This document shows positions 10,238 through 29,350 of a stretch of DNA of 64,000 bases, piece after piece. The translations under genes and the position numbers were made by a program. The DNA lies in the NCBI RefSeq assembly GCF_036231965.1, contig NZ_CP109499.1, positions 3,906,001 to 3,970,000 of the forward strand. Reading direction: 5' to 3'. The notes below the pieces were generated by a model. That model saw nothing but the letters and a program-made list of their open reading frames with translations. It ran no database searches and was not told the DNA's origin. The stretch is from Streptomyces sp. NBC_01428. GTDB lineage: Bacteria; Actinomycetota; Actinomycetes; Streptomycetales; Streptomycetaceae. Position 1 is the stretch's first letter, and each line of letters opens with the position of its first letter.

Positions 10238-13200
10238 GTGCCCGCTGTCCCCAAGCCGTTGGCTCCCTCTCCGCGGGAGCGCTGGTTCCAGCCGCGGCGG
10301 TCCGGGTTCGAGTGGGAGCAGGAGGGGCTGGACCATCTCCGCGCGCTGATGCCGAAGACCGAGCCCTATCGCGCGTGGGCCACGTTCCAGTTCACCGCGG
10401 CGTCCGGCCGGATCAACGAGTGCGATGTGCTGATCGCCGTGCCCGGCGGGCTCTACCTGCTGGAACTGAAAGGCCACCCCGGCAGGGTGGTGAACCACGG
10501 CGACACCTGGCAGTTCCACAGCGACCGTGTACGCACTCTGCGCAACCCCCTCCACCTCACCGACCTCAAGGCCAAGGAGCTGAAGGGCCAGCTGGAGCGA
10601 GCGGCGCGAACCCTCGGACTGCCTCCCCGCGATGTTCCGTTCATCAAGCCTGCGGTGTTCCTCCACGATCCCGGGCTCGTGAGCGGACTGGACGAGTTCC
10701 AGCGGACCTCGGTCTACGGTCTCAACGACGGTGCGAGCGGTCTGCCGAAGATCTGGGACGACCTGCTGGGCCGCCCGCCGGAGCGGGAGAGCTGGCGGAT
10801 CACACCGGTGATCAGCGAACGCCTGGAACGGCTGATGCAGACGATCGGCATCAGTCACTCCACCGCCCATCTGCGGTTCGGGGACGACTGGAAGCTCGAA
10901 CCGCGTGCCCTCGACGCGGGCCCCGGCTGGGAGGACCGGCTGGCGGTGCGCGACGACGGGCTCGTGCAGGAGAGCGGTCGCGTCCGTATATACCTGGCCG
11001 GCGCCGCCGCCTCCGAGGAGCAGCGCGCGAAGGTGGACCGGGCTGCCCGTCGTGAGTATCAGGTGCTGCAGGGCATCAACCACCGCGGCATCGTGCAGGC
11101 GGCCCAGATCCGTGAGCACCAGGGCGGTCCGGCGATCCTGTTCCGTCACCGCGAGTCGGATCTCCGGCTGGACGCCTACCTCGACGCGTACGGCGGCCAC
11201 CTTGCCCCCGGCCAGCGTGTCGATCTGGTGCGGCAGCTCGCGGAGGCGGTGCGCTACGCACACAACCGGTCCCTCTACCACCGTGCGCTGTCCGCAGGAT
11301 CGGTCTACGTCTCCGCGCGCGAGGACGGCAGTGAGCCCGTTCTACGGATCGCCGACTGGCAGACGGCGGCCCGTGACTTCGAGACGACCTTGCACAGGTC
11401 GCTCGGTGACACCCCGCTGGACGGGGGGCTGATCGCGGACACGGCGCAGGTGTATCTGGCTCCGGAGACCGACCAGGAGTTCGCCGACCCGGTCGACCTG
11501 GACGTCTTCGGTCTCGGCTCGCTCACCTATCTCCTTCTCACCGGCCGGCCTCCGGCGGATCGTCGCAGCGCCCTTCTGGAGCGGTTGCAGAGCGACACCG
11601 GTCTGCATCCCTACGCGGTCTCCGACTCGGTCTCGGCAGCTCTCGACACCCTTGTCTTCCGGGCCACGGCCGCGGACGTACGGGACCGCCTGGCGTCGGT
11701 GGACGAGTTCCTGGACCTGCTGGCCTCGGCCGAGGCGGACGCGGCGGCCCCGCAGCAGACCGGGGGGCGCGCCGCCGATCCCCTCACCGTGCAGCCCGGC
11801 CAGCCGTTGGACGACACCTGGACGGTGCTCCGGGTGCTCGGCACCGGCGCCACGGCTCGTGCGCTGCTGGTCCGTCAGAGCGTCGCCGAGGACGGGGCGG
11901 AGCCCGTCCGCGTCTTCAAGGTCGCCCTGGACCAGGAGAAGGACGGCCGCCTGCTCGCGGAGGCAAAAGCACTGAAGGAGGTGGGCGGTGGGCGCATCGT
12001 CAAACTGCTCGCCGAACCACGTGAGCTCGCGAGCCATACGGTCCTGGAGATCGAGTACGCGGGTGGTTTCCGCGCGGAGGACGACCGCGAGCCGGTGAGC
12101 CTCGGTTCCCGGCTGCGCGATCTGGGCTCGTTGGGCTACGACCAACTGGAGAGATTCGGCAACGATCTGTTCGAGGCCCTGGACACCCTGGCGGCACGCG
12201 GGGTGAGGCACCGGGACATCAAGCCGGACAACCTGGGCGTGTTCAAGCGCAACGACGGTTCCTGGCAGCTGATGCTGTTCGACTTCTCGCTCGCCGACGC
12301 TCCTGACCAAGATGTACACGCGGGCACGCGTGGGTATCTGGACCCGTTTCTCGGCGGTGCCGGCCGTTCGCGCTACGACGACCACGCGGAGTGGTACGCC
12401 GCGGCCGTCACTCTGCACGAGATGGCCTCCGGGGAGAGGCCCGTCTGGGGTGATGGTCAGGGTGACCCGCGGATGGTCGCCGACGCGGCCCTTCACGTGT
12501 CGGCCGAGCTGTTCCCCCAGGCTCTCAGCGAGGGCTTGAAGGGGTTCTTCGAGCGAGCGCTGCACCGGGATGTCGAGCAGCGCCACGACACTCTGGGTCA
12601 GTTGCAGGAAGCGTGGCGGCTGGTCTTCCGCAAGGCCGACGCGGCTAGGCCCGCGACCACGCCCGCCACCGTCGGGACGAGCACGGACGATCTGGAGGAC
12701 ATCCGCGAGCAGGCCGCCGAGGCCGCCGGCCTGAAGACTCCTCTCGCGGCGGCCGGCCTGTCGCCGAGGGCGGTGTCGGTCGCCGAGGGGTTGAAGGCCC
12801 ACACCGTCGAGCAGTTGCTGGACATTCCGCCGCACCACATCTCCCGGGCCCGCGGCGCGGGCAACGCGATCCGCAAGGAGCTGAACCGCCGGCACCGCCA
12901 GTGGACGCAGGCACTGCGCCGCCGCGTGGCCGTGAAGAAGCCCGTGGCTCTGCAGCCGGACGCTCCGGAGGAGGTGCTGGAGTCGATCGACACGCTGGCC
13001 GCGCGCCTCACTCCGCCCGAGGGCAAGCGTCGTACCCGGCCCCGGTCCGACGTGGTCCGTGCGACGCTGCAGCTCCCCGGTGTGCTGGAGGCCGGTGAGG
13101 CACTGGAGCCCTGGCCGGCCCAGAGCGTGATCGCGAAGGCGCTGGGCATGAGCCAGCCGACCGTTTCCGGAAACCAGCGGGTCGCTGTCGAGGAGTGGAC

Positions 13201-14692
13201 CCGGCTGCCGTGGCTCGGGCGGGTCCGTGACGAGTTGGTGGCGATCCTGACCGACCGGGACCGGGTGTCCACGGTCGAGGAACTGGCCTCGGAGCTACGG
13301 GCCCGGCACGGTGCGGGCGCCGGCGACCCGACGGAGGCACAGGCCAAGGCCCTGGCCGTGGTGCGGGCCGCGGTCGAGGCGGAAATCCGTAAGCGGGACG
13401 ACGAGCGCTCCGATGTCGAGTCCGTCGAGACGGCCGAGGCCGCTGCCCGGTTTGCCGTACAGCGGCGTGGTGGCCGGGTCGTCATCGCGCTGGAGGACCA
13501 GCCGGGCACGGACGACCCGACACCCGCCGAACTCGCCGACTACGCGGCGGCGCTGGGCGAACAGGCCGCCGATCTGGCTGGTCGCGAACCGTTGCCCGGC
13601 CGTACCACCGTGCTCCGCGAATTGCGTACGGTTGCCGCGCCCGAGGGCATGACACCGCTCGCCGACACCCGGCTGGTGGAGCTAGCGGCGTCGATGGCGG
13701 GTGGCGTGGCCTTCTCGCCACGGTTGGAGCTGTTCCCGCTCGCGCTCAATCTGGCCCGCGCCCTGCGTATCTCGCAGGCGCCGGCCGGCGTGCGTCCCGA
13801 CACCGGCATCACCACCGCGGACCTGCTCGCCCGGGTACGGGCGCGGTTCCCCGGGCTGGCGATCCTGGACGAGGCGACCTATGTGGAGCTGACCGAGGCT
13901 CTTGCGGAGTCTGGCTTCCCCCTGGACTTCGACCAGGGCCGGCGGCGCTTCTTCCCCCGGGCCGATGAGGGCACGAGCAGCCGTCTGGGTCTGTCCTCCT
14001 CCATGCTGACCAGCACCAGCTCCCTCTACGCAGCTGCCCAGGGGCGTATCGCCGAGGGCAAGGACCCGCGTGAAGTGCTGTCCGCACGGCTCACGGAAGC
14101 CCATCGCCGGGGTGGTTTCCTGGCGCTCACGCTGAAGGGAGCCGAGCTGCCGGGTGTCGCGCAGGCGTTGGCGGAACGGTACGACACCTCCGCCGTGCCG
14201 CTGAACGCCCTGTTCCTGGAGGCTCTCAAAAGGCTGTCCGAGGAGCAGTCCGTGCGCTGGGAAGCCCTGTTGAAGGCGGACGCCAAGTTCGCGGCGACCG
14301 GCACGCTGGGCGCGGCGCTCGCCTCCTACACGCGGCTTGCTGCCGAACGGGTGCGGCAGCAGCTGGTCGACCTGGCCGAGGCCTCCAGTCCACGATCCGT
14401 GCTGCTGGCCCATGAAGCCGGACTGGTCGCCCGTTTCTGGGAGGCCGGTGGGCGTGAACTGCTGGCCGCCGTACAGCAGTCGGCACGACGCCCCGCCGAC
14501 ACACCGCACGGCCTGTGGATACTGCTGCCGGTGGAGGACCCGCGAGCCACGCCCACCCTGGACGGGCGCACAGTGGAAGTGGTGGACAGGGTCACCGAGT
14601 GGGAGGTGCTGGACGGCCTCTTCCTGAAGCAGTTGCGTTCCGGGTCCGAGAGCGGCCAGGACAGGCTGCCGACGGATCGCGGGGGCGCATAG
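10238..14692 (+). CDS. pglW: PglW: NERD-domain dual kinase of the Pgl/BREX type 2 system
   Basis: A 1484-residue protein, the kinase component of phage growth limitation. A NERD nuclease-related domain occupies about residues 30-160, with candidate catalytic D63 and the E-x-K pair of LYLLELKGH. A first kinase fold at about 230-500 is degenerate: its catalytic loop reads YHRALSAGSV and its DFG equivalent reads ADWQ. A second kinase at about 525-800 is intact (GTGATARALL, KVALDQ, HRDIKPDNLG, FDFSLA with DFS for DFG). The C-terminal third has a helix-hairpin-helix stretch resembling the RNA polymerase alpha C-terminal domain (about 828-885) and a helix-turn-helix (LGMSQPTVSGNQR, about 970). The GTG start has GGAGGT 5 bases upstream. 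Family evidence is from the Pgl literature; domain boundaries are by eye. Confidence 0.93.
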   Translation: MPAVPKPLAPSPRERWFQPRRSGFEWEQEGLDHLRALMPKTEPYRAWATFQFTAASGRINECDVLIAVPGGLYLLELKGHPGRVVNHGDTWQFHSDRVRTLRNPLHLTDLKAKELKGQLERAARTLGLPPRDVPFIKPAVFLHDPGLVSGLDEFQRTSVYGLNDGASGLPKIWDDLLGRPPERESWRITPVISERLERLMQTIGISHSTAHLRFGDDWKLEPRALDAGPGWEDRLAVRDDGLVQESGRVRIYLAGAAASEEQRAKVDRAARREYQVLQGINHRGIVQAAQIREHQGGPAILFRHRESDLRLDAYLDAYGGHLAPGQRVDLVRQLAEAVRYAHNRSLYHRALSAGSVYVSAREDGSEPVLRIADWQTAARDFETTLHRSLGDTPLDGGLIADTAQVYLAPETDQEFADPVDLDVFGLGSLTYLLLTGRPPADRRSALLERLQSDTGLHPYAVSDSVSAALDTLVFRATAADVRDRLASVDEFLDLLASAEADAAAPQQTGGRAADPLTVQPGQPLDDTWTVLRVLGTGATARALLVRQSVAEDGAEPVRVFKVALDQEKDGRLLAEAKALKEVGGGRIVKLLAEPRELASHTVLEIEYAGGFRAEDDREPVSLGSRLRDLGSLGYDQLERFGNDLFEALDTLAARGVRHRDIKPDNLGVFKRNDGSWQLMLFDFSLADAPDQDVHAGTRGYLDPFLGGAGRSRYDDHAEWYAAAVTLHEMASGERPVWGDGQGDPRMVADAALHVSAELFPQALSEGLKGFFERALHRDVEQRHDTLGQLQEAWRLVFRKADAARPATTPATVGTSTDDLEDIREQAAEAAGLKTPLAAAGLSPRAVSVAEGLKAHTVEQLLDIPPHHISRARGAGNAIRKELNRRHRQWTQALRRRVAVKKPVALQPDAPEEVLESIDTLAARLTPPEGKRRTRPRSDVVRATLQLPGVLEAGEALEPWPAQSVIAKALGMSQPTVSGNQRVAVEEWTRLPWLGRVRDELVAILTDRDRVSTVEELASELRARHGAGAGDPTEAQAKALAVVRAAVEAEIRKRDDERSDVESVETAEAAARFAVQRRGGRVVIALEDQPGTDDPTPAELADYAAALGEQAADLAGREPLPGRTTVLRELRTVAAPEGMTPLADTRLVELAASMAGGVAFSPRLELFPLALNLARALRISQAPAGVRPDTGITTADLLARVRARFPGLAILDEATYVELTEALAESGFPLDFDQGRRRFFPRADEGTSSRLGLSSSMLTSTSSLYAAAQGRIAEGKDPREVLSARLTEAHRRGGFLALTLKGAELPGVAQALAERYDTSAVPLNALFLEALKRLSEEQSVRWEALLKADAKFAATGTLGAALASYTRLAAERVRQQLVDLAEASSPRSVLLAHEAGLVARFWEAGGRELLAAVQQSARRPADTPHGLWILLPVEDPRATPTLDGRTVEVVDRVTEWEVLDGLFLKQLRSGSESGQDRLPTDRGGA

Positions 14693-14741: not shown

Positions 14742-15347
14742 TCAGCTGCCGCCGGCCGACTCCAGCTTGTCCGGCCAGCCGATGAGCTCGCCGCTGTCCC
14801 GCAGCCGGTACAGATCGGACATGAGTCGGCCGGGCGCCCCTCCGGCACGTGTGGACCAGCCGAAGAACTCGGCCACCTCGGCGACGGCCTGTTCGGCGCC
14901 GAGCCCGCGCGGACGGTCCTCGACGAGCCCGAGCAGTGCCCGCTCCCGCTCGCCCGGAGCAACGTGTTCGACGGGGCGGCGGGTGAGGCCGGGCAGCGGC
15001 CACCGAGCCTTCGTGGAGGGCCTGTAAGGAAGGTCGAAGAAGTCTCGCACCTCGACGAGCCGCCCGTCCTCCACCAGCGAGGCCGCCGCACTGTCCACAA
15101 GACGCTTTCGTCCAGCACTCAGTCTGGGCTCTTACAGGACCTCACCCGCGTGGAGATGGAGCACCTGCCGGTGGATCGGTCCCTCCGCTTCGACGAGCCG
15201 GTGCACGACATCCGCCAAGGTCGTCCGGGGAGCCTTGGCCGTCCAACTGAAGGCCATCGGGTCGAAGTCGGTGAAGTCGGCCGGCTGGTACGGGACTGCC
15301 CAGTCGCCGTGCTCCCGGGCGGTGTCGGACTTCTTGCGGGTCGGCAT
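14742..15347 (-). pseudogene. DUF3320-like fragment with an in-frame TAA stop
   Basis: Two open stretches in the same frame, codons from 15347 and from 15131, are separated by one TAA at 15134-15132. Before it, TTLADVVHRLVEAEGPIH resembles the DUF3320 module at the C-terminus of large superfamily 1 helicases. After it, the frame continues sensibly with PRLSAGRKRLVDSAAASLVEDGRL and a winged-helix-like remainder, about 200 codons in total. The start ATG lies 14 bases after the RNase III-like gene, so it is in that operon. Simplest reading: a stand-alone DUF3320-like gene broken by a nonsense mutation. A 71-residue product may still be made. A sequencing error is also possible. Confidence 0.6.
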
Positions 15348-15361
15348 GGGAGATCGCCTCT

Positions 15362-18250
15362 CTACTTCTCTTGGTCCGGCAGGGAGGATCCGGCATCAAC
15401 GACCACGGTCTGCCGTCGCACGCCGTTCTCTCCGAGGTAGGCGTCCATTCCGGCCGCCGCCAGCGGGGAGAGGGTGCTCGGGTCGGGACGGCTGTGCAGC
15501 CTCAGCAGCACGTGGTCGTCGTCGACCAGACAGTCGGTGTACGGCAGGGTGCGGGACAGGAGTTGGGCGAAGTCGTCGCAGGCGGCCCTGACGTCGACGC
15601 TGTGCAGACCGATCCAGACGTGGAGCGTGCCGTCCTGGACGGTCAGTTCGACGTCGACCGGGGTCCCGGCAGCGTCGGCGGCCTCGCCGCACCACTTCAG
15701 CGTCTCGTGCAGCGCGCCGAGGTGCGCGTGCAACGGCTCGAAGGCGTCCCGGCGCATGTCGTCGCGGACCGTGACACCGGTGTCGGGCGCCTGGTCGCGC
15801 CACCAGTCCTGGACGATGTCGCGGACGGTCTTCTCCCACGGCCCAGCGTGCAGGACGCGGCGTACGGTGGCGGCGGCGTGCCGCCGGACGGTGCTCGGCC
15901 CGTCGGTGCCCTGCTCGGCGGCCATCCGCCGCAACAGGGAGTGGGGGCCCTGGCGGGCGTCGTGGACAACCTGCCGGTACAGCTCGCGCAGCGGGTCGGG
16001 CAGGGTCGTGCCGTCCGGGCCGAGCAGGGTGCCGACGCGTTCCGCCCAAGCCTGGAACGCCTCGGTGTCCCCTGTGGCGAGGAGGTCGGCCCCGAGGTCG
16101 CCGCGAGCGAGGATCCGCGTGCGCTGGCGCTCAGTGGTAGCACCGAGGCCGTCGAACTGGGCGCGGAGAAGGGCGGCCAGCAGGTCGCGGCGGCGAACGG
16201 TGAGGCTGTCGAGGGCCTCCATGGAGGTCTGCGCGGCCAGGATGTCGAGCATCTCCTGGACGGTCGTCTTCTTCGCCTCCGGCTTCCCCGTGTGTCCCTC
16301 GGTGCGGGCCGTCCATCGGTGGACCCTGCCCCTGGCGTCCCGCAGGACAGCGGTGACGGTGAAGCTCTTGCGGTGATCCGGTCCCGAGGTCTGCTCCTCG
16401 AAGTCGCACGTCATGCCGTACACGGCCACCAGCGCGTCGAAAACGGTCACCGGGTCGTGCCGGTGGTCGAGCTCGGTGAGCCAGCCGTCCAGGTCGACAG
16501 GCCGGCGTTGCAGAAGTTCCGGGCCGCGTGTCCGCCAGGCCGCCGCGACCACGGCCTGGGCCGCGTCGGAGATCGACCTGCGTCCTTCTCCGTCCTCACC
16601 GTGCCCGGTGAGGAGCCCGGTGCCGACGGCGAGCACGGCACCGAGCCGGGCAGTGTCCTCGTCCGTAGTGGGGAGGAGGCGCGTGTCGTCCTCGTCGAGC
16701 CGGAGATCGCGGGCGAACGCGGTACGGGCCCTGGTGTGGGCCGCCAGGTGGTCGATGACGAACGAGCCGTGGTGGGCGAGGAGGTCGTTGGCCCGCTGGT
16801 GGGCCGCGCCGACCGCGGCCTGGTTCTCGTAGGCCCAGGACGCGTGGGTGAGAGCTTGGGCGAGCAGCCCGTCCGCCCGGTGCCCGAGTTCGAACATGGC
16901 TGCCAGGTCGGTGACGGCGTCGCGGTGCCCGAGGTCCGGGAGGCGGTACGGCCGGGCGGGCACGGCCGGTGTGCAGGCCGACGAGGCCGTTGGGACGGCG
17001 GCCTTCACCATCTGCGGGTACTTGTCCATCAGGGCCTGGGCCGCAGCCGCGCGGGCACCCTTCTTCGAACGCCCGACTCCGAGGGCGCTCCGCCCGGCAC
17101 TGGTACGGGCGATGGTCCGGAAGACCTTCTGGTGGTCGGGCCCCTCCTGGCCGTCGTCGTCGTAGGTCAGCCCTTCCTTCCCGAAGACCGACTGCGCCTT
17201 GGTCACCGGGTCGGGCCCGGTCTCGGCCGACGGCCGGTCGAGACCGGGCCACACGGCTGTGACGAGCCGACGTGCCGTGGCGTGCGCGCCGGTCAGGCTG
17301 AGCACTCCGAGGATCTGGAGGGCGACGCTCTCGCCCACGGACGGGGCCGGCTTCTGTGCCTCACCCGTTCCCATACGCGGCAGACAGCCGTCGGTGGCCC
17401 ACTTGCCCAGGGCCAGTTCTGCAGCACGCCGCCGTCGGGCGTGGTCGACCGCCTGCACACCGGACTTCTGTGGGTGGGCCCACCGCGCGTAGGCGTCGAG
17501 GAGGATCACGTCGAGAGTGGTGGCACCGAGCCGGTCGAGCAGACCGAGCACGTACGGGCTGACGGCATCGGCCTCGTAGCTCTCGTAGAGGTGGCTACGG
17601 TGTTCGGCGGCCAGCCCGAACCATGCGGTCGCCTCCGGAGTGGTCGCCCACTCTCCGGCGGTCTGCCGTACGGCGGCGACCACCTCGACGCCGGATTCGG
17701 CGACCAGTTCCACGGGTGGGGCAACCAGGGGCGGATACGTGATGTCACGGGAGGCGAGTTGCCGGTGGGGCCGGGGGGGCTGGCGTACGGGCTCGAAGGA
17801 CGGCCGACGGTCGTCCCTGGTCTCGCGGACAGGGGCGGGCTCACGACGGGTCGACGGTTCCGGCCGAAGACGGTCCCGGGCGTGGCTGAAGGTCGCCTGC
17901 CGCGGGGACGCATTTCCTTCGTACGCCTTCTTCGGCGCGGCGGCGCCCTGGTCGAGGGCGCTGCGTAGGTCGCCGACGAGCCAGCCGGGCAGCCCTCGCG
18001 GGGGTTGGCCGCCGTTGAAGAACGCACCAGCCAGGTCGACGCAGTACTGCCAGTGGTCCCACTCGTAGCGGTTCGCGTACTCCTGGGCGAGCCTGCGCAG
18101 CGCCGCACGCATGCGCTCGTACGGAACCTGTCGACTGCCGAGCGTGTACGACGTGCGCTTGCGGGCCGCCTCGATCGCGAGAGCGATGCGGTGCACAGGC
18201 GTGGGCGGTGCGGTCTCCCGCAGCGACACGATGCCGACCCAGCGGTTCAT
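15362..18250 (-). CDS. Large protein with RNase III-like domain between two dsRNA-binding-like domains
   Basis: A 962-residue protein that I cannot match to a named family. Residues about 348-411 (VTKAQSVFGKEGLTYDDD... SKKGARAAAAQALMDKY) look like a dsRNA-binding domain, ending in the KKxAxxxAA helix. Residues about 440-590 resemble RNase III: LLAQALTHASWAYEN matches the ALTHxSxxxEN signature. The catalytic NERLEFLGD segment is replaced by RANDLLAHHGS, and the second site reads SISDAAQAVVAAAW (Gln for Glu). A second dsRBD-like domain lies at about 600-674, with an all-helical C-terminus. It is probably a dsRNA-binding, non-cleaving protein. The ATG start has GGGGGAGGG just upstream; the frame extends 40 codons further without support. 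It lies antisense between pglW and pglX. Confidence 0.7.
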   Translation of the reverse strand: MNRWVGIVSLRETAPPTPVHRIALAIEAARKRTSYTLGSRQVPYERMRAALRRLAQEYANRYEWDHWQYCVDLAGAFFNGGQPPRGLPGWLVGDLRSALDQGAAAPKKAYEGNASPRQATFSHARDRLRPEPSTRREPAPVRETRDDRRPSFEPVRQPPRPHRQLASRDITYPPLVAPPVELVAESGVEVVAAVRQTAGEWATTPEATAWFGLAAEHRSHLYESYEADAVSPYVLGLLDRLGATTLDVILLDAYARWAHPQKSGVQAVDHARRRRAAELALGKWATDGCLPRMGTGEAQKPAPSVGESVALQILGVLSLTGAHATARRLVTAVWPGLDRPSAETGPDPVTKAQSVFGKEGLTYDDDGQEGPDHQKVFRTIARTSAGRSALGVGRSKKGARAAAAQALMDKYPQMVKAAVPTASSACTPAVPARPYRLPDLGHRDAVTDLAAMFELGHRADGLLAQALTHASWAYENQAAVGAAHQRANDLLAHHGSFVIDHLAAHTRARTAFARDLRLDEDDTRLLPTTDEDTARLGAVLAVGTGLLTGHGEDGEGRRSISDAAQAVVAAAWRTRGPELLQRRPVDLDGWLTELDHRHDPVTVFDALVAVYGMTCDFEEQTSGPDHRKSFTVTAVLRDARGRVHRWTARTEGHTGKPEAKKTTVQEMLDILAAQTSMEALDSLTVRRRDLLAALLRAQFDGLGATTERQRTRILARGDLGADLLATGDTEAFQAWAERVGTLLGPDGTTLPDPLRELYRQVVHDARQGPHSLLRRMAAEQGTDGPSTVRRHAAATVRRVLHAGPWEKTVRDIVQDWWRDQAPDTGVTVRDDMRRDAFEPLHAHLGALHETLKWCGEAADAAGTPVDVELTVQDGTLHVWIGLHSVDVRAACDDFAQLLSRTLPYTDCLVDDDHVLLRLHSRPDPSTLSPLAAAGMDAYLGENGVRRQTVVVDAGSSLPDQEK

Positions 18251-18751: not shown

Positions 18752-18976
18752 GTGTCTCGCTTCAACCTGGCCCAACTGGCCCAACTGGCCCTCATTGTCG
18801 CCGTCATCGAGGCCGCCGACGGATTTCGCCGCGACCCGGCCGTCGCCAAGGCGGCCAAGCAGTTCATGGAAGACGGCGCGCAGGCTTTCCGCTCCGGTGG
18901 TGCGCTGGCACGTGAGGTTCAGTCCTACTGGCGTCGCCACAACCCGCTAGCCGACGGGACCGGAACCGATGAATGA
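18752..18976 (+). CDS. Small protein coupled to the XRE/glycine-zipper gene
   Basis: A 74-residue protein of unknown function starting MSRFNLAQLAQLALIVAVIEAADGF. The N-terminal half is a probable short membrane or amphipathic helix and the rest is polar helix. The GTG start is chosen because AAAGG lies 9 bases upstream; an ATG at 18734 is in frame with no ribosome site. Its stop overlaps the start of the next gene by 8 bases (ATGAATGA), so the two are translationally coupled. It may be a partner, or an immunity protein, of the membrane-inserting product downstream. Confidence 0.6.
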   Translation: MSRFNLAQLAQLALIVAVIEAADGFRRDPAVAKAAKQFMEDGAQAFRSGGALAREVQSYWRRHNPLADGTGTDE

Positions 18977-20192
18977 TTTCAGCGCGGAAGCGATGGGTCT
19001 CGTGATCCGCGAGCACCGCCAGGCCCAGCAACCCCCGATGACCCAGGAAGAGTTGGCCGAGCAGGCCGATTACGGGAAGGGTGGCGCGGTCTCGATCTCC
19101 CGGATCGAGCGCGGGCTCGTAAGTCCCCGAGAGCATCGTCTGGCCGCCGTCGCCCTCGCGCTCCGACTGACACCCGGGCAACTCGAACAGGAGGCGGAGG
19201 ACCGAACCAGGTCTCTCGCTCTTCAACGGGGTCGGCGGCCAGTGAAGTTGCGCGACCAGGTCGCGGAGACGAAGAGACGTCACGCCGAGATCACCGAGAA
19301 GACGACGCAGCGGTCGAAGATCACCCAAGAACACGGGGAAAGCTTCAAGCGCGTCCATGATGTCGTCCGCGACAAGTTCTTCATGAGGTTCGTGGCGCTG
19401 GCCGAGAGCATCAGCGGGGCGCCCGAACCAGAGAAGCCGGGTGAGAAGGAGATCGAGAGTACGCGCGAGGCTCCTACGGCGATACATATCGAAGCCATGT
19501 CCGCCGGGATCGCCAACGCGATCCGTGGCGCTGCCGCCGGAGGTGCGGCCGGGGCGGCAGTCGGCGGCGCCGCGGCCTACGGTGCGTTCACCGCCGCCGC
19601 ATTGTTCGGGACCGCCTCCACCGGCGCGGCCATCCCGACGCTGACCGGGGTCGCCGCGACCAACGCGACCCTGGCACTCCTGGGAGGAGGAACGCTGGCC
19701 GCGGGCGGTGCGGGCATGGCGGGTGGAACCCTCCTGCTCACGGGTATGGTCGCCGCCCCGGCGGCAGCACTGGCGGCAGCCGGCTTCTACGTCGTGAAGC
19801 AGCGTCGGAACAAGAAGGAGGAGGAACGCCTCCGAACCCAGATCGAGGCCGCGGAGAAGGATCTGGACCAGTCGCAGAAAGGCTTCGACACGATGGTCGA
19901 CGTACTGTCGCGCGCCACGGTCATCATGGAATACGTCGAAGTCCACGGCATCCACGCCCTGGAGAAGTGGAGGGCGAGTCTGCCGCCGGAGTCCCGGGAC
20001 TGGGAATCGCTCGGGCACGGGGGGCAGGAACGGTACAAGGGGTTCCTCACCCTGGCGGGATGCCTCCTCGCCATGAACATCGTCAACGTCCCTGATCTCC
20101 TCACGGCAGAGCCCGGCCCTTTGCGCGAGTTGGACGAGATCATCGACGAGACGCTGCGGTACGCGGACAAGACCATCAGGTCGATCGTCTGA
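18969..20192 (+). CDS. XRE helix-turn-helix fused to glycine-zipper membrane domain
   Basis: A 407-residue protein with an unusual architecture. Residues 8-75 are an XRE-type helix-turn-helix (MTQEELAEQADYGKGGAVSISRIERGLVSP). Residues about 85-150 are a charged helix or coiled coil. Residues about 180-270 are dominated by Ala and Gly with glycine-zipper spacing (AAAGGAAGAAVGGAAAYG; LLGGGTLAAGGAGMAGG), ending in FYVVKQRRNKKEEERLR, as in pore-forming or membrane-inserting segments. Residues 270-407 are soluble helix. A DNA-binding head on a membrane-active body suggests a regulated toxin or abortive-infection effector, but this is inference. No known family recognised. Confidence 0.75.
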   Translation: MNDFSAEAMGLVIREHRQAQQPPMTQEELAEQADYGKGGAVSISRIERGLVSPREHRLAAVALALRLTPGQLEQEAEDRTRSLALQRGRRPVKLRDQVAETKRRHAEITEKTTQRSKITQEHGESFKRVHDVVRDKFFMRFVALAESISGAPEPEKPGEKEIESTREAPTAIHIEAMSAGIANAIRGAAAGGAAGAAVGGAAAYGAFTAAALFGTASTGAAIPTLTGVAATNATLALLGGGTLAAGGAGMAGGTLLLTGMVAAPAAALAAAGFYVVKQRRNKKEEERLRTQIEAAEKDLDQSQKGFDTMVDVLSRATVIMEYVEVHGIHALEKWRASLPPESRDWESLGHGGQERYKGFLTLAGCLLAMNIVNVPDLLTAEPGPLRELDEIIDETLRYADKTIRSIV

Positions 20193-20537: not shown

Positions 20538-21365
20538 TCAGTAGTCCAAGTCGGCCAGGCGGACGTGGCAGCGCCACCAGTCGACCGACCACTCGCCGTT
20601 CATCTCGTATCCGGCCTCGGCCACCTGCTCGGTCGCCCGTCGCAAGCAGCCCCGCAGCCCTTCCAGGGTGCTGACGTCCGGGATCTCCTCGCAGGGGCGG
20701 AACACGGGCGTGTGGTGCATGACGTGCCGCTCTCCACCGCGCATGCCGGTGATCCGGAGGGTCGGGGCACCGTCGTCGTTCGTGATCGACACCTGGCGGT
20801 GGATCACGCCCGTCTCCTCGTCCAGACCCTCGCCGGAGGGGCCGAAGTCCTCTCCTTCCCGGGCGGGGTCGGTGACGGCACTCTCGCAGGAGAACCAGAC
20901 CAGGTTCCAGGACCCGTCCGTGTCCCACCGCTCCGCGTCCAGCCTTCTCTGCGCGACTTCGGTAAGGAAGGTCAGTCTTTCGATCGTATGAGGGTCGAAG
21001 TCCGGCGGGAGTTCGCGGCTCAGGTCGAAGGAGGGGTCCTCCCCCATTCCTCCGGCGTAGGCATTCACGAGTTTGAGGACACGCGGGTCGCTGTCCTCAT
21101 CATCGTCGTCCTCGTCACCCGCCTCGTCGTCCGTCAGGCAGTGACGACGGTCGAGCTTCGCGTAGGGCTGCTCGGGCGACTCGCAGCCCAGGCAGAGACC
21201 GGGCATGCCATCGCAGGTGCAGGTGTCCGTGTCATCGGCTTCGTCGTAGATCGCCTCGACGACCTCGTCCGCCTCCGCCCCGGGCGGCACCTCGTCCCGC
21301 GCGGCGTCGCGATCGACGGCCGGGAAGTCCGCCCGGTCCGGCCCGGTGTCGGAAGGTACGGGCAT
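20538..21365 (-). CDS. Acidic protein of unknown function
   Basis: A 275-residue, strongly acidic protein with no recognised family. It has a cysteine cluster near residue 50 (CTCDGMPGLCLGCE), possibly metal-binding, and an acidic run (DEAGDEDDDDEDSD) near residue 85. The C-terminal two thirds look folded, with several Trp (WNLVWF, WSVDWWRCH). The start is at the ATG with GGAGG about 9 bases upstream; the frame extends 37 codons further without support. It is followed by the small basic protein gene, so an acidic/basic partner pair is conceivable. Confidence 0.65.
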   Translation of the reverse strand: MPVPSDTGPDRADFPAVDRDAARDEVPPGAEADEVVEAIYDEADDTDTCTCDGMPGLCLGCESPEQPYAKLDRRHCLTDDEAGDEDDDDEDSDPRVLKLVNAYAGGMGEDPSFDLSRELPPDFDPHTIERLTFLTEVAQRRLDAERWDTDGSWNLVWFSCESAVTDPAREGEDFGPSGEGLDEETGVIHRQVSITNDDGAPTLRITGMRGGERHVMHHTPVFRPCEEIPDVSTLEGLRGCLRRATEQVAEAGYEMNGEWSVDWWRCHVRLADLDY

Positions 21366-21558
21366 GTCGAGCAGCCTCCGGAGTCGAGGGACTCCGATAG
21401 CGCACTGCCGCACCCCGGTGATCTGCGCCTTCCCGCGCGCCTCGCGCGGTCCGGTCGTCACCCGGGCGTCTCGCACCCGGATGCAATGCGGTCCTGCACG
21501 TCAAGGTTTGACTCTGGATCACACGGCCGAGCGGGAAGCTAACACCGACACCAGCCTT

Positions 21559-21700: not shown

Positions 21701-22216
21701 GTGCACGCCATCGACGCAACCGGCACGCCCCGCAACTGGGACCTGTACCAGGCAGCGGTCGTCGACATCCGGTTCCGGGACCGGATCGTTCGCGTCGAAC
21801 CGCGCTCCCCGGGCACGGCTGGGGGTTCCTTCCCCGAACCGGCCGGCGGCGCCACCGTCCATGTGATCACCGCGTGGAACCCCCTCGGCCGTGACGCGTC
21901 CCCCGAGGCCAACGCCCGCGCCCATCGCCTGCTGCTCGCCGAGGTCCGCCGCCGCAGTCTCACCTGGTGGCCCGCGATAGGTGGCGACAGGTCCGGGACA
22001 CACCGCGAGGAGAGCCTCGCGGTCACCGGTCTGAGCGACACCGCCGCGCGCGACCTGGGCCGCCGCTTCGGCCAGGACTCGGTCTTCGCCTGGACTCCCG
22101 ACGCGTGGCGCGTCCTGGCGTGCGACACCGATGCCGCCGCGGTGAACGGATGGGCGGTGTCCGAGAGGGCCGCTTCCCGGGGGCGGGCGGTCATCGAGGC
22201 GGGGGCATACGAGTGA
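21701..22216 (+). CDS. DUF3293-family protein
   Basis: A 171-residue protein matching the DUF3293 pattern: an early strand, then HVITAWNPLGRDASPEANARAHRLL, a stretch ending in ESLAVTGL, and FGQDSVFAW near residue 128. The family has no established biochemical role. The GTG start follows GGAGGCC. It overlaps the next gene by one base (TGATG), so the two are cotranslated. Confidence 0.8.
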   Translation: MHAIDATGTPRNWDLYQAAVVDIRFRDRIVRVEPRSPGTAGGSFPEPAGGATVHVITAWNPLGRDASPEANARAHRLLLAEVRRRSLTWWPAIGGDRSGTHREESLAVTGLSDTAARDLGRRFGQDSVFAWTPDAWRVLACDTDAAAVNGWAVSERAASRGRAVIEAGAYE

Positions 22217-22428: not shown

Positions 22429-22640
22429 CGTCTCGCCGCACTGGGAGGCGCGGCGGCCGGCTGCCCGTGAAGACGGGCGACCGATGTCGTGCGCGGCAAG
22501 TGCGCGGATGACGCTCGGCCGGTGTCTACAGCCGGTGATGCCGGGCTGGCAGGATGGGACGGCGAGCCTTGGGGTGTTCGCCGTGAAATGTGCGCATCCG
22601 TGGTGATCGCGGTGCCGTGAGCAGGATGAGAGGTGCGGCT

Positions 22641-25600
22641 GTGACCGTGACAGCTGAGGGGACGCAAGGGGCGGGGGCCTCGCTCGATCGCACACGGCTG
22701 CTGAAGGATCTCCAGGCACAGGCGCGGCTCCTTGAGGACGACCTTCGGGAGCGGACCGAGGCCGAGCCGGAGTTCCGGGACGCGCTGCGGGTGGAGTACG
22801 ACAAGGCCGTCGCGGCGGAGCGTACGGCAGCCATGTACGAGACGTGGCGTGACGAACGAGTCGTCCAGATTGCCGCCGCGTGGGTGCTGGCATGCGTTTT
22901 CGTGCGGTTCAGCGAGGACAACGGGCTGATCTCGGACCCGTGGCTCTCCGGGCCGGGGGATCGACTGGCCGAGGCGCAGGACCGGCACGACGCGTACTTC
23001 CGGGAGAACCCCGCGAGGAACGACCGGGACTGGCTGCTGGACTCCTTCGAGTTCCTCGCCAAGTCGCACCGGACGGTGGCGGGGCTGTTCGACCGCACGC
23101 ACAACCCCTTGTACGAGGTCACGCCGTCGTACGAGGCCGCGACCGCGCTGCTCGCGTTCTGGCGTCAGCGGGGCGCCGACGGCGAGATCGCGCACGACTT
23201 CACGAACCCCGAGCTGGACACGCGTTTCCTGGGTGACCTGTACCAGGACCTGTCGGAACACGCCCGCAAGACGTACGCGCTGCTCCAGACCCCGGTGTTC
23301 GTGGAGGAGTTCATCCTCGACCTGACGCTGGAGCCCGCGGTGGAGGAGTTCGGGCTCACGCCGGCATGGAAGCACCGGCCTGGCGGCTGGGACGGCGAGG
23401 TGTTCCCGGACGGACCCGATGGCGAGGAGGTCGTACGGGGGCTGCGCTGCATCGACCCCGCGTGCGGCTCCGGGCACTTCCTGCTGGGCATGTTCGAGCG
23501 GCTGCTGGAGAAGTGGCGCGCCGCCGAACCGGGCACCGAGCCGTGGGTGCTGGTGCGACGGGCGCTGGAGTCCGTGCACGGTGCCGACAAGAACCCGTTC
23601 GCTGTGGCTATCGCACGGTTCCGGTTGTTGGTGGCGGCGCTAAAGGCGGGTGGCGTACGGGAGCTGAGCGCGGCTCCTGGGCTGCCTATTCGGGTGGCTG
23701 TGGCGGACTCGTTGCTGCACGGGCGGGGTGCGGAGACGGTCACGGAGTCTCTGGACACGCTGTTCGCGGAGGACGAGCCGTTTTATTTCCGGACCGAGGA
23801 CGTGGAGGAGTACGCGCGGGAGGTGGACCTACTCGGGCGGGGGACCTATCACGTCGTAGTGGGGAATCCTCCGTACATCACGGTCAAGGACGCGAACGAG
23901 AACAAGAACTACAAGGCCGCGTACGACGCTTGCTATCGGCAGTACGCGTTGTCGGTTCCGTTTGCTCAGCGAATTTTCGAGCTGGCGGTGCGGGCTGGAG
24001 GCGACCATCGGGATGGGGGGTTTACGGGCCAGATCACCTCTAACTCTTTCATGAAGCGAGAGTTCGGGAAGAAGCTGATTGAGGAATTCTTCCCGACGGT
24101 TCAGCTGACGCATGTGATCGATACGTCCGGGGCATACATTCCGGGGCATGGGACGCCTACGGTGATTCTGGTGGGGCGAAATCAGATCGCTCGGCAGGGT
24201 GAGCCGGTGCGTGCACTACTGGGAGTGCGGGGGGAACCTGGGCAACCAGCCGAGCCTGAAAATGGCTTTGTCTGGCAGGCGATCATTAAGCAACACGGCG
24301 CACCCGGAAGCGAGTCGGACTGGATGTCCGTTGAAGATGCCCAGCGCAATCGCTTCTCAAGTCACCCATGGGCACTCAGCGGTGGCGGAGCCGCCCCCGT
24401 GCAAGCGAGGATCGAGCAGAACACCAGCCCGCTGTGCGAGCTGGGCGCGATCGGCTCAGGCGCTGTGACGCGCGAGGACAGCGCATACCGCGTTACCTCC
24501 GGCACGCTCCGCAGACACGGCATCGGATCCAATTTTCAGCGAACCCTTCTGGAAGCTGAAAACATTCGCGATTACGGGTATACGGACCCCATCGTTGGCC
24601 TCTACCCATACAATGGCTCACTTGAGGCATGCAGCACAGCAGACATCGAACGCTTCCTCTGGCCCGCACGTGCCATTCTTCGCGAACGAGTCGCTTACGG
24701 AAAGACACAGCTCGAACGTGGCCTTAAGTGGTTCGAATACTCGATGTTCTTCCCCGGAAAATACAGAACGCCACTTTCCATCACTGTAGCATTTTTCGGT
24801 ACCCACAACCACTTCAAGCTCGACAGGGGCGGCAATGTATTCAACCGCTCTGCGCCCGTAATAAAGCTATCCGAAGACGCAGACGAGGAACGGCACCTTG
24901 AGCTCCTTAGCGTGCTAAATTCTTCAACAATCTGTTTCTGGCTCAAGCAGGTCTGCCACGACAAGGGAAGTCAGTCAGGCACAGGCGGCTTCATGCATGA
25001 CGAGTGGGAGAGGTTCTACGAATTCTCAGTAACAAAACTTCAGAAGACCCCTATCCCGGCTCGACTCCACTCAGTTCCAGCAGGGGATCTTGATGGCTCG
25101 GCAAGGGAGCTTGGAGCACATGAGCCATCCACGCTGACGAGCCAAGGTACGCCGACGCGGAAATCCCTCGATGCATCGCGAGAGACCCAGGCGACGATCC
25201 GAGCACGGATGATCGCATTGCAGGAGGAGCTGGACTGGAGCGCGTACGGGGCGTACGGGCTCCTCGCCGCCGAGGAGGTCGCGCGAGCCACCATTCCAAT
25301 GCGCGTCGGCACCGACATCCCCGAAGTAGTTCTCGGTCAGCGGGCATTTGAGATTGTGCTCGCACGAAAGGTTGCTGCCGGTGAGGTTGAAACGGTGTGG
25401 TTCGAGCGGCACGGAGCCGTCCTAACCACAGAGATCCCAGCCGACTGGCCGCTTGAGTACCAGCAGATCGTGCAGGCTCGAATCGACTTGATCGAGGCCA
25501 ACAAAGACATCCGCCTCATCGAGCGCCCCGAATTCAAGCGCCGCTGGGCGACCGAGCCCTGGGAGAAGCGGGAAGCCGCCGCCATCCGCAACTGGCTGCT

Positions 25601-26369
25601 CGACGCCGCCGAACGCGAGGACCTCTGGTTCGAGGATCGGGACGGTTTCACCGTGCCCAGGCTGCTCACCGTCAACCAGCTCGCCGATGCCCTCCGCCAC
25701 GACAAGGACGTCCAGGCCGTCGCCGCGCTGTACGCCGCCGATCACCTCGGCAAGCGTGACGCCTCTCTCGCCACCGTCCTGGCCGCCGTCATCGAGGCCG
25801 AGCACGTGCCGTACCTCGCCGCCCTGCGCTACAAGGACACCGGCCTGCGCAAGCGTGCCCAATGGGAGCAGGTCTGGGAGCAGCAGCGCGAGGAGGACCG
25901 GACCGGGCAACGGCTCGACATCAAGGTGCCGCCGAAGTACGTCGGCGCCGACTTCCTCAAGCAGTCCTTCTGGTCCAACCGCGGCAAGCTCGACGTGCCC
26001 AAGGAGCGCTTCATCTCCTACCCCGGCGCCTCCTTGGAGTCGGACACCTCTCTCCTCCTCGGCTGGGCCGGCTGGAACCACCGGGACCAGGCCGACGCCC
26101 TCATCGGGCTCATCCGTAACCGCGTCGAAGACGGCGGCTGGGACAAGAAGGACCCCCGGCTCGTGCCGCTGCTCGCGGGGCTGAGGGAAGTCCTTCCATG
26201 GGTTCACCAGTGGTACGGCGAGTACGACGAGGAGTGGGAGGGCAACCCCGCCGAGGAGTTTCAGGCCGCCCTCGAATCGGGCCGCGCGGACGCGGAGTTG
26301 TCGGAGAACGACCTCGCCAACTGGCGACCCGAGAAGAAGACTCGGGGTCGGCAGAAGAAGAGCGAGTAA
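22641..26369 (+). CDS. pglX: PglX: adenine-specific DNA methyltransferase of BREX type 2/Pgl
   Basis: A 1242-residue N6-adenine DNA methyltransferase, the modification and specificity subunit of Pgl. SAM-binding motif I is DPACGSGHFLLG near residue 271 and the catalytic motif is NPPY near residue 409 (VVVGNPPYITVKD). A long target-recognition region follows (about residues 440-900) and then a helical C-terminus. In S. coelicolor, PglX is toxic without PglZ and phase-variable. Bases about 23,900-25,500 are clearly richer in A and T than both ends of the gene. A G6 run lies at 24015-24020. The GTG start (MTVTAEGTQGAG) has AGAGG 7 bases upstream; an ATG at 22626 is the alternative. Confidence 0.93.
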   Translation: MTVTAEGTQGAGASLDRTRLLKDLQAQARLLEDDLRERTEAEPEFRDALRVEYDKAVAAERTAAMYETWRDERVVQIAAAWVLACVFVRFSEDNGLISDPWLSGPGDRLAEAQDRHDAYFRENPARNDRDWLLDSFEFLAKSHRTVAGLFDRTHNPLYEVTPSYEAATALLAFWRQRGADGEIAHDFTNPELDTRFLGDLYQDLSEHARKTYALLQTPVFVEEFILDLTLEPAVEEFGLTPAWKHRPGGWDGEVFPDGPDGEEVVRGLRCIDPACGSGHFLLGMFERLLEKWRAAEPGTEPWVLVRRALESVHGADKNPFAVAIARFRLLVAALKAGGVRELSAAPGLPIRVAVADSLLHGRGAETVTESLDTLFAEDEPFYFRTEDVEEYAREVDLLGRGTYHVVVGNPPYITVKDANENKNYKAAYDACYRQYALSVPFAQRIFELAVRAGGDHRDGGFTGQITSNSFMKREFGKKLIEEFFPTVQLTHVIDTSGAYIPGHGTPTVILVGRNQIARQGEPVRALLGVRGEPGQPAEPENGFVWQAIIKQHGAPGSESDWMSVEDAQRNRFSSHPWALSGGGAAPVQARIEQNTSPLCELGAIGSGAVTREDSAYRVTSGTLRRHGIGSNFQRTLLEAENIRDYGYTDPIVGLYPYNGSLEACSTADIERFLWPARAILRERVAYGKTQLERGLKWFEYSMFFPGKYRTPLSITVAFFGTHNHFKLDRGGNVFNRSAPVIKLSEDADEERHLELLSVLNSSTICFWLKQVCHDKGSQSGTGGFMHDEWERFYEFSVTKLQKTPIPARLHSVPAGDLDGSARELGAHEPSTLTSQGTPTRKSLDASRETQATIRARMIALQEELDWSAYGAYGLLAAEEVARATIPMRVGTDIPEVVLGQRAFEIVLARKVAAGEVETVWFERHGAVLTTEIPADWPLEYQQIVQARIDLIEANKDIRLIERPEFKRRWATEPWEKREAAAIRNWLLDAAEREDLWFEDRDGFTVPRLLTVNQLADALRHDKDVQAVAALYAADHLGKRDASLATVLAAVIEAEHVPYLAALRYKDTGLRKRAQWEQVWEQQREEDRTGQRLDIKVPPKYVGADFLKQSFWSNRGKLDVPKERFISYPGASLESDTSLLLGWAGWNHRDQADALIGLIRNRVEDGGWDKKDPRLVPLLAGLREVLPWVHQWYGEYDEEWEGNPAEEFQAALESGRADAELSENDLANWRPEKKTRGRQKKSE

Positions 26370-27645: not shown

Positions 27646-27676
27646 TGAACCACCAGTGGAAGTTAGGGCTCCCACC

Positions 27677-28675
27677 GTGATTTACAGGCACCATATCGCG
27701 CCCCCGCGCGCCTTCACCCAGTTCTCCCACGAGCTCATCCGGCACCCCCGGCTGTCCTCCGACGCGGTCCGCCTCCTGACCTGGCAGCTCTCCCTTCCGG
27801 AGGGAGCGCGCGAGCCCCTCTCGCGCACCGCCGAACGCGCCCGTATCGGAGCAACCGCCTTCACCCGCGCCAAGCGCCAGCTGAAGGACGAGGGCTTCGT
27901 GCACGAGCGGCGCCTTCAAGGCCCCGGCGGCCACTGGGTCACCCAACAGCTCGTCTCCAGCGTCCCGTTGAACCCCGGTGAAGCCGCTAAGCTCCTCGCG
28001 CAAATGCCCGTGTCGCCGCAGGCCGCACCGAGTGCCCGCAATCCGGCGGTCGGTGAGCGGACAGGTCGGCTCACCGGCGGTCTTCCCTACGGCGACACCC
28101 ATGTGAACACCCGCAACCGTCCCCCCAAACCCCCCGAGGACACACCCGATGGCCCCGCACCCGCCGAAGCCTCCGAAGCCGCGCACTCCTCGCCAGCCCC
28201 GGAAACCCCGCAAGCCCAGGTAGACCGCGAGGGTCACGAGGACGGCAGGCCAGGTCCCCCGAACCCCCATCTCGAAGAGGCCCGCACCCTCGCCGCCTCC
28301 TACCGCGACCTGGACCCCGCCCTCCGTCACATCCCCCGCCCCATGCACGCCGAGCTGACCCGCCTCACCGCCCGCTGGCTCGACGCAGGCCACCCGCCCA
28401 CAGCTATCCGCACCCACATCCTCCGCGGCCTCCCCGACGACGGCACCCCCGTCCACCGCCCCGGCGGCCTGCTGCGCCACCTGCTCCAGGACGTGCCACC
28501 CCCGCCCGTCGCCCCTCGCAGCGCTCCCCCACGCACCTCGCAGCAGCTCGATCCCTCCGCCGCCGGCCTCTCCTCGCGACTGGCCGCCCTGCGTGAGTGC
28601 GAGGGCCATCACGTGCAGGCGACCCTGTTCCGGCCGGTCCACGACGAGATGCTCTGCCCGCGCTGCTCCGGCTGA
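27677..28675 (+). CDS. Winged-helix-like protein with disordered middle
   Basis: A 332-residue protein. Residues about 10-100 look like a winged helix (DAVRLLTWQLSLPEGAREPL... TAERARIGATAFTRAKRQLKDEGF), of the type in plasmid replication initiators and actinobacterial regulators. Residues 105-200 are Pro/Ala-rich and probably unstructured. The C-terminus (about 205-332) is helical and ends with a CPRC-like pair (EMLCPRCSG). The GTG at MIYRHHIAPP is chosen, with AGGG about 9 bases upstream; 27656 is an alternative. Role unknown; the NYN nuclease gene follows 36 bases later. Confidence 0.65.
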   Translation: MIYRHHIAPPRAFTQFSHELIRHPRLSSDAVRLLTWQLSLPEGAREPLSRTAERARIGATAFTRAKRQLKDEGFVHERRLQGPGGHWVTQQLVSSVPLNPGEAAKLLAQMPVSPQAAPSARNPAVGERTGRLTGGLPYGDTHVNTRNRPPKPPEDTPDGPAPAEASEAAHSSPAPETPQAQVDREGHEDGRPGPPNPHLEEARTLAASYRDLDPALRHIPRPMHAELTRLTARWLDAGHPPTAIRTHILRGLPDDGTPVHRPGGLLRHLLQDVPPPPVAPRSAPPRTSQQLDPSAAGLSSRLAALRECEGHHVQATLFRPVHDEMLCPRCSG

Positions 28676-28711
28676 ATGCGCTTCAACTCGTTGCTGCCGT
28701 ACCGTAATCGC

Positions 28712-29350
28712 ATGACTACCAACATCTACATCGACGGCTTCAACCTCTACTACGGCCGCCTCAAGAAGAACCCCGAGCTCAAGTGGCTCGACCCGGTCTC
28801 CCTGTGCGCCAAGCTCGTCCCGGCCGGACAACAGATCAAGCGCGTGCGGTACTTCACGGCGAGAATCAAGCCACGCCCGGACGATCCGGGCGGTCCACAG
28901 CGCCAGGACGCCTATCTGCGCGCCCTCGGCACACTGCCCCAAGTGTCCGTCCATTACGGGAGGTTCCTGCAGACCACCCCGCGCATGCGGCTGGCCCAGC
29001 CGCCGCCCGGCGGTCCGAACACGGTCGCGGTGGTCAAGACCGAGGAGAAGGGGACCGACGTCCACATCGCCTCGCACATGCTGCTCGACGCCTTCCGCAA
29101 GGACTGCGACCTGATGGTCCTCGTCAGCAATGACAGCGACCTGTGCGAACCGCTGCGGATGGTCAAGGAGGAGCTCGGCGTCGACATCGGCATCCTCAAC
29201 CCGTTCGACAAGCCGAGCCACTGGCTCCGACAGCTCCAGCCGGCGTTCATGAAGCCGATCCGGGAAGGTGTCGTGCGCGCCTCGCAGTTGCCCGACCCGG
29301 TGCTCCTGGGTGACGGCAAGGAGGTGCGCCGGCCCAAGGAGTGGGTCTGA
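28712..29350 (+). CDS. NYN-domain (PIN-like) nuclease
   Basis: A 212-residue NYN protein, a PIN-like fold usually acting as a metal-dependent RNase. The acidic residues expected in the site are present: IYIDGFNLYYG at residues 5-15, the aspartate of KGTDVHIASHMLLDAF near 125, and SNDSDLCEPL near 145. Length is normal. The start is at MTTNIYIDGFN; no ribosome site is obvious. In a defence island such a nuclease could be a toxin or an RNA-degrading effector, but this is inference. Confidence 0.85.
   Translation: MTTNIYIDGFNLYYGRLKKNPELKWLDPVSLCAKLVPAGQQIKRVRYFTARIKPRPDDPGGPQRQDAYLRALGTLPQVSVHYGRFLQTTPRMRLAQPPPGGPNTVAVVKTEEKGTDVHIASHMLLDAFRKDCDLMVLVSNDSDLCEPLRMVKEELGVDIGILNPFDKPSHWLRQLQPAFMKPIREGVVRASQLPDPVLLGDGKEVRRPKEWV

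Follow-up and report, generated by a model that had tools for sequence, protein, structure and literature searches.

A tandem RNase III-like/dsRBD protein with degenerate active sites in actinobacterial defense islands, a candidate double-stranded RNA receptor

The 64,000-nucleotide stretch of Streptomyces sp. NBC_01428 analyzed here (the window; assembly GCF_036231965.1, contig NZ_CP109499.1, positions 3,906,001 to 3,970,000, numbered from its first base) contains a minus-strand gene at 15362-18250, coding for a 962-residue protein whose core is a duplicated unit of an RNase III-like domain and a double-stranded RNA-binding domain (dsRBD), with catalytic residues mostly lost in both copies. 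In three distant relatives this core is fused to a histidine kinase with a response regulator gene adjacent, and defense genes lie beside many copies. We infer double-stranded RNA (dsRNA) binding, signaling, and a defense role, and give about an even chance to the reading that the protein is a non-catalytic dsRNA-binding receptor of defense islands, with signaling through a kinase module in at least one branch of the family.

The open reading frame (ORF) starts at an ATG at 18250 and is open across all 962 codons; an alternative upstream GTG would give 1002 residues, and in the alignment the Streptomyces-type relatives use an MNRWVG start, or nearly so. The architecture is RNase III-like/dsRBD/RNase III-like/dsRBD in one chain, together with N- and C-terminal domains. 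The N-terminal helical domain (residues 1 to 101, 17948-18250; all domains are on the minus strand) was modeled by AlphaFold with block mean predicted local distance difference test (pLDDT) scores of 68 to 86 over residues 31 to 100; it is present in the Streptomyces-type members and in L003, and the alignment shows it shortened or missing in L004, L005, and L017. Sequence profiles place RNase III-like domain 1, with its catalytic residues mostly lost, at residues ~200 to 345 (17216-17653) and RNase III-like domain 2, which carries the signature ALTHASWAYEN, at residues ~440 to 597 (16460-16933). Each is followed by a dsRBD, dsRBD 1 at residues ~346 to 414 (17009-17215) and dsRBD 2 at residues ~598 to 675 (16226-16459), and a tentative GHKL-like domain is located at residues ~806 to 922 (15485-15835). 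The first-pass annotation, made from the sequence alone, described a degenerate RNase III domain between two dsRBD-like regions; those three domains are present, and the sequences it quoted (ALTHASWAYEN, RANDLLAHHGS, and SISDAAQ) are all found in the translation, but the more N-terminal RNase III-like domain was overlooked. A single RNase III domain between two dsRBDs is thus rejected as the complete order, because residues ~200 to 345 form a further RNase III-like domain.

With the window protein alone, Pfam reports dsrm above its cut-off (E 5.1e-5, at dsRBD 1) and Ribonucleas_3_3 below it (E 0.008). Within a family alignment of 11 open-frame members, the window protein included, dsrm matches 11 of 11 and Ribonucleas_3_3 10 of 11 (each at E≤0.1), and the RNase III model TIGR02191 matches all 11 at E≤0.1, with the window protein scoring 36.4 bits, far under the cut-off of 166. 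The profile built from this alignment matches Mycobacterium tuberculosis RNase III (2a11) at E 2.2e-16 across RNase III-like domain 1 plus dsRBD 1, and Thermotoga maritima RNase III (1o0w) at E 3.4e-9 across RNase III-like domain 2. When residues 200 to 430 of the family alignment are compared with residues 436 to 690 by hhalign, the two halves align over 206 columns with a probability of 98.1 and an E value of 1.4e-13 for this single comparison; by these alignments, the core arose by duplication of one RNase III/dsRBD unit. G370, P371, and K397 of dsRBD 1 are invariant in all 11 aligned members, and this domain retains the GPDH loop and SKKGAR, which we take to be the canonical RNA-contact motifs.

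For the active sites, 12 members (window included) were compared by alignment with the rnc proteins of nine Streptomyces hosts. All nine rnc genes have a complete E/D/D/E quartet, and no copy in any of the 12 members keeps it. Within domain 2 the first Glu is replaced by Ala (12/12), the following Asp by Ser or Ala (12/12), and the last Glu by Gln (12/12), with the third-position Asp kept in 11/12; the window protein reads A, S, D, Q. In domain 1, as aligned, the GD Asp and both last acids are gone in 12/12. Catalytic residues are therefore mostly lost in both copies, and the degenerate RNase III of the first-pass annotation is borne out by the profiles and the missing acids alike; its statement that the active-site acids are replaced holds for most of them, with the exception of D562 in the second copy. 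Substitution of Gln for Glu at the last catalytic place is a known route to an RNase III that binds without cutting, and structures of the mutant enzymes 1yz9 (E110Q) and 1rc7 (E110K) are among the structure-comparison matches. With both active sites broken, the protein would be expected to leave bound dsRNA uncut, and the residue pattern suggests that it probably binds without cleavage. A natural duplicated and dead RNase III, with Gln at this place of the second copy in every member, is an odd and testable object.

Two AlphaFold predictions were made from shallow alignments (10 and 7 rows) and have mean pLDDT scores of 48.9 and 50.3. In these models both dsRBDs are predicted to adopt the dsRBD fold. 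dsRBD 1 matches Aquifex aeolicus RNase III (1rc7) with a VIA Z of 11.7 and a root mean square deviation (rmsd) of 1.5 over 68 aligned residues, and dsRBD 2, which has an alpha-beta-beta-beta-alpha order in both models, matches 8igd_A of the DRB7.2:DRB4 complex (VIA Z 11.6, rmsd 1.6, 77 aligned). The two dsRBD-like regions noticed earlier are thus recovered both by the dsrm match and by the predicted folds. Among the 50 matches listed in each of two structure comparisons, the matched stretches lie on the dsRBDs or the GHKL-like part, and none on an RNase III-like region as such, an absence of little weight given the poor modeling of those regions.

In three relatives (L005, L017, and L021) the duplicated core continues into an intact histidine kinase. 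HATPase_c is present in L005 and L017, the two scanned by Pfam (best E 2.7e-16), L021 matches the kinase structure 3sl2 (E 1.6e-7), and all three have an LLHDxKNQ motif; a search with the L021 protein recovers the window gene (E 2.2e-38, residues 55 to 671). The next gene codes for a response regulator in all three (Response_reg E 7e-17 to 3.3e-18), and the kinase and regulator genes overlap by four bases, with the overlap for the L021 gene, which is held in L032, counted from the regulator start that aligns, 11920. These gene pairs are at L005:9833-14079, L017:9782-13794, and L032:8897-13131. The other two regulators share 45% and 68% identity with the L017 regulator, all three retain the phosphoacceptor D58 and R245-N246-x3-H250, and Pfam finds no DNA-binding domain in them. 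Judged by its motifs, this branch has the hallmarks of a two-component system, namely HATPase_c, a His motif, and an adjacent REC protein with the phosphoacceptor Asp. It also forms a plausible complete pathway of dsRNA receptor, histidine kinase, response regulator, and HEPN-like output. The suggestion of a dsRNA sensor gains support from this fusion of the same core to an intact kinase with its regulator adjacent. The kinase branch allows a direct biochemical test of the effect of dsRNA on autophosphorylation and on RNA cutting by the regulator, and the two-component pair deserves a study of its own. A CHAT/TPR protein is encoded upstream in L005.

The C-terminal half of the window protein may hold a degenerate kinase-like domain. 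Residues 806 to 922 resemble the ATP-binding domains of DosS, VraS, and DesK (DosS structure 8sbm, VIA Z 10.9, rmsd 3.1, 113 aligned), in a part modeled with a modest block pLDDT of 52 to 74. Pfam at E≤1 gives no match for this part and no HATPase match anywhere in the window protein, and hhalign of the C-terminal part against the genuine kinase region in the relatives gave no support, with a 1.4% probability for the GHKL stretch. The N-box place, inspected by eye, is occupied by Trp in seven Streptomyces-type rows and by Gln in L003 and L004, with a gap in L005 and L017; the N-box Asn and phosphoacceptor His motifs used here are those that we take to be diagnostic, and by them the window protein does not qualify as a histidine kinase. 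We tentatively regard the C terminus as a degenerate histidine-kinase ATP-binding domain (GHKL), apparently lacking the N-box Asn. It is constrained: between the window copy and L009, the GHKL-like part has nonsynonymous and synonymous rates (dN and dS) of 0.17 and 0.95, the lowest dN/dS of any domain.

Window-type proteins, 51 to 63% identical, are found in Streptomyces (L001, L002, L009, L010, and L011) and Wenjunlia (L015), and more distant versions (24 to 25% identity) are on Rhodococcus plasmids (L003 and L004, with L019 a copy of L004). Relatives occur in nine plasmid records, and none were found in viral contigs and phage records. L019 (the locus of L004), L020 (the contig position of L011), and L018 (a 53-residue fragment) were left out of the counts. 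The family is sparse. Only 3 of 61 genomes in a genus sample have it, these being the window's own genome, G033, and G011, the last with the kinase type. At E≤1e-3, 12 of the 61 genomes match, nine of them weakly; at each of the nine weak loci there is a normal rnc gene whose single frame contains both LEFLGD and GPDH, and the matches come from RNase III-like domain 1 and dsRBD 1. A class sample yielded 1 of 60 genomes at E≤1e-8, the window's own. The kinase-type query matched 31 of 60 genomes in a phylum sample at E≤1e-8, and the query ranges indicate that matches outside the own genome are to kinase parts or, in two places, to single rnc-like stretches. The genus and class scans scored at most 14 candidates per genome, and a further genus scan 8, so weak copies could be missed.

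Many of these relatives are located among defense genes. The BREX-1 genes DUF1819, DUF1788, brxC, and pglX begin 2.5 kb downstream in L003, and nearby genes elsewhere include a type III restriction-modification pair (L004), Gabija gajA and gajB (L012), pPIWI-RE and DinG (L009), Druantia- and GajB-like helicases (L011), and an annotated type ISP enzyme (L001). In a small survey, 8 of 20 chosen neighbors (4/10 and 4/10) match non-kinase PADLOC families at E≤1e-10, compared with none of 10 controls from around the window, two of which match kinase models. A kinase-only match at L011:4869-7850 was excluded from the neighbor count because the PD-T4-6 models match two ordinary control kinases. The scan took in no neighbors from L013, L014, L016, or L017, and no PADLOC family was found among the two, one, two, and two neighbors scanned in L002, L005, L008, and L015, respectively. 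By the first-pass annotation, homologs never occurring near defense genes would have refuted it; they are found beside BREX-1, type III restriction-modification, Gabija, and pPIWI-RE genes.

The protein might instead be a dsRNA sink or RNase III antagonist that shields sense/antisense duplexes, with a regulatory or plasmid-linked function and no immune role. A dead RNase III with dsRBDs would do exactly that, and the occurrence in nine plasmid records and the absence of recognized defense genes among the annotated neighbors of L002 (two of them PADLOC scanned) agree with it. However, it leaves both the constrained C terminus and the intact histidine kinase/regulator branch unexplained, and it does not account for the non-kinase PADLOC matches among 8 of 20 neighbors against 0 of 10 controls; we consider it unlikely.

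The gene lies antisense between pglW (10238-14692; PADLOC PglW, 1459 bits) and pglX (22590-26369; PADLOC PglX, 1629 bits), both on the plus strand, as the first-pass annotation had it, and the same annotation took it to be a Pgl-associated component. It could then be a true Pgl/BREX accessory subunit feeding RNA information to PglW or PglX, and the placement between the two genes, the BREX-1 genes 2.5 kb from L003, and pgl fragments near other copies would favor this. The distribution does not. PglW is present in 12 of the 61 Streptomyces genomes (own included) at E≤1e-100, and the window-type gene is in only one of these, the window's own; G011 is a PglW genome whose family member is of the kinase type and lies on a different contig, and in G033 the gene occurs with no such PglW match. 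Membership in Pgl is rejected on these counts. L010 and L008 are at the chromosomal site of the window, with flanking genes 80 to 100% and 80 to 98% identical, respectively. In L010, only fragments of pglX and pglW are left, the gene is open, and a 197-residue DUF3320-like gene follows it; in L001 a pglX fragment is beside an open gene; and in L008 there are no matches to the window Pgl proteins across 22.8 kb, and the gene is frameshifted. Of the relatives, those in L010 and L001 lie beside pgl fragments, and others adjoin several other defense systems. Because of these other systems, and because the gene is open beside pgl fragments in L010 and L001, we favor an independent passenger of defense islands over a part of Pgl. 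Taken with the antisense orientation to both pgl genes, this makes an accessory subunit improbable.

A selfish or plasmid-borne gene that is decaying and serves no function in its host today is given a similarly low probability. Frameshifted or partial copies (L006, L008, L012, L014, L016, and L018) and the interrupted downstream partner fit decay, but the window copy is uninterrupted across its 962 codons, and the five open pairs compared have whole-gene dN/dS values of 0.24 to 0.42. L013 is also broken, at an assembly gap of N. The frameshifted L008 differs from the window copy with a dN of 0.096 and a dS of 0.30. The frame switch in L012 is ~25 bases past a C6 run that the intact relative L015 shares, a C7 run is near the L016 switch and a C5 run near that of L008, and no run of five or more is at the first switch of L006. 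The window copy has a C7 run at 17773-17779, in a linker of the gene. Phase variation of the gene through C runs is possible; pglX of Streptomyces coelicolor has a variable G tract, as described in the accessible text of PMC4365076.

A disguised ribonuclease is very improbable. Cutting or nicking might come from the remaining acids, from a different domain, or from an association with the host RNase III; D562 is kept in 11/12, acids are at or beside two domain 1 positions in 8/12, and no function is assigned to the N-terminal domain. RNase III catalysis, however, depends on acids that both copies lack, and the duplicated unit would be expected to pair with itself and not with the host enzyme.

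We return to the preferred reading, a non-catalytic dsRNA receptor of defense islands. With the unit duplicated in one chain, a single polypeptide could imitate the RNase III homodimer and would clamp an RNA duplex. Bound dsRNA, for example from convergent phage transcripts or structured phage RNA, would change the C-terminal kinase-like half. In the kinase branch, the true histidine kinase would phosphorylate the adjacent response regulator, and the phosphorylated regulator would switch on the HEPN-like output, probably a growth-stopping RNase. In the window branch, the degenerate kinase-like half would act via a partner encoded elsewhere. We hold more tentatively to the fuller proposal of an actinobacterial dsRNA-triggered immunity running from dead tandem receptor through phosphorelay to HEPN RNase, with the window gene representing a pseudokinase branch that uses island partners; this is doubtful.

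Several observations weigh against the receptor reading. Both RNase III-like regions have pLDDT scores mostly below 50 in both models; because AlphaFold failed on them, the RNase III fold rests on sequence, and the comparison with known folds proposed in the first-pass annotation delivers predicted folds for the two dsRBDs but none for these parts. In domain 1, an acid is retained at the first catalytic position in 8/12 members, and a Glu sits one place before the third catalytic position in 8/12 (window, L002, L003, L004, L009, L010, L011, and L015), which makes the register at the last two acids uncertain. dsRBD 2 is the least constrained folded domain, with the highest dN/dS between the window and L009 (dN 0.41, dS 0.63), and many of its structure matches are dsRBDs known for protein contacts or dimerization; for both reasons it may not bind RNA, and by analogy it may serve in dimerization. 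The frameshifts in L006, L008, L012, and L016 could reflect decay, slippage, or sequencing error. No output was identified for the window version, whose DUF3320 neighbor is interrupted by a stop codon. In the kinase branch, HEPN_RiboL-PSP is matched by only one of three regulators and below threshold (E 0.0068, 16.8 versus 28.4 bits), and R-N-x3-H is presumably an instance of the HEPN RX4-6H motif. Finally, the 20 neighbors were picked by hand for size and nearness and not at random, those of L004 after its annotation had been seen, and were compared with only 10 controls.

The surrounding type-2 BREX/Pgl locus continues with PglY/BrxC (33452-37477), PglZ (37477-40212), BrxD (within an ORF at 39732-41552), and BrxHI (41549-43699), and holds every component expected from the type-2 description in the accessible part of PMC12839542. 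The 962-residue protein itself matches no PADLOC family at E≤0.1. Downstream of it is a small gene with a DUF3320 motif (14742-15347, minus strand; E 8.1e-6), a possible but broken operon partner consisting of two same-frame ORFs (15132-15347 and 14742-15098) split by a stop codon; its counterpart is a single 197-residue ORF in L010 and is shortened in L001. Also between pglW and pglX, a plus-strand gene at 18969-20192 codes for a 407-residue protein that is possibly another defense passenger: it belongs by its PADLOC match (E 4.6e-23) with the candidate family PDC-M09A, its N terminus gives a weak HTH match, and it contains hydrophobic stretches rich in glycine and alanine. Genes for an NYN-domain protein (28676-29350) and a HATPase_c_2 protein (29611-30096), both on the plus strand, are between pglX and pglY. 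L008, which has no Pgl matches, carries relatives of three genes of the pgl locus, those at 20538-21476 (minus), 21701-22216 (plus), and 27656-28675 (plus), alongside its copy of the gene. In L010, the gene's immediate neighbors at this shared chromosomal site encode a protein with a CdiA-type RNase A toxin domain and a CdiI immunity protein (L010:6863-9697).

Among known systems, bacterial RNase III (rnc; TIGR02191) shares the order of an RNase III domain followed by a dsRBD, but here the unit is duplicated, the catalytic residues are mostly lost, and extra N- and C-terminal domains are present. Dicer and Drosha have two active RNase III domains in one chain that form an internal dimer; the window protein resembles them in having two such domains in one chain, and differs in having a dsRBD for each RNase III-like domain, in that both look dead, and in that no helicase, PAZ, or platform domain was recognized. 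Among the matches listed in a search of the open-access literature, titles and the beginnings of abstracts reveal no dead tandem RNase III and no bacterial dsRNA-sensing kinase.

Type-2 BREX/Pgl shares the genomic location, but the window-type gene is absent from 11 of 12 sampled PglW genomes; the accessible main text of the 2026 BREX survey PMC12839542 does not name it and has no mention of RNase III, dsRBD, dsRNA, or dsrm, in keeping with the first-pass remark that no such component is known in described BREX systems. The accessible text of the Pgl paper PMC4365076 does not mention dsRNA, and that of PMC7159879 does not mention RNase III, dsRBD, or dsRNA. Cyanobacterial HEPN-RNase III-dsRBD fusions, described in the accessible part of PMC3710099 with both RNase III and HEPN predicted to be active in one chain, likewise join modules for dsRNA recognition to a HEPN RNase within a bacterial protein, but in the present family the RNase III appears inactive and it is a separate regulator, in the kinase branch only, that carries the HEPN-like output. 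Two-component systems with HATPase_c kinases and REC regulators are matched by three relatives that have both in adjacent genes; they differ in that the sensor is a dead RNase III/dsRBD tandem and the output is HEPN-like, with no DNA-binding domain by Pfam. dsRNA is a classic alarm signal of animal antiviral immunity, in which it drives the kinase PKR or, through OAS/RNase L, switches on a HEPN RNase. The kinase and synthase of those pathways are not homologous to the proteins described here and the likeness is an analogy only, but if the proposed mechanism is true, bacteria would have a pathway that follows the same logic as PKR and OAS/RNase L.

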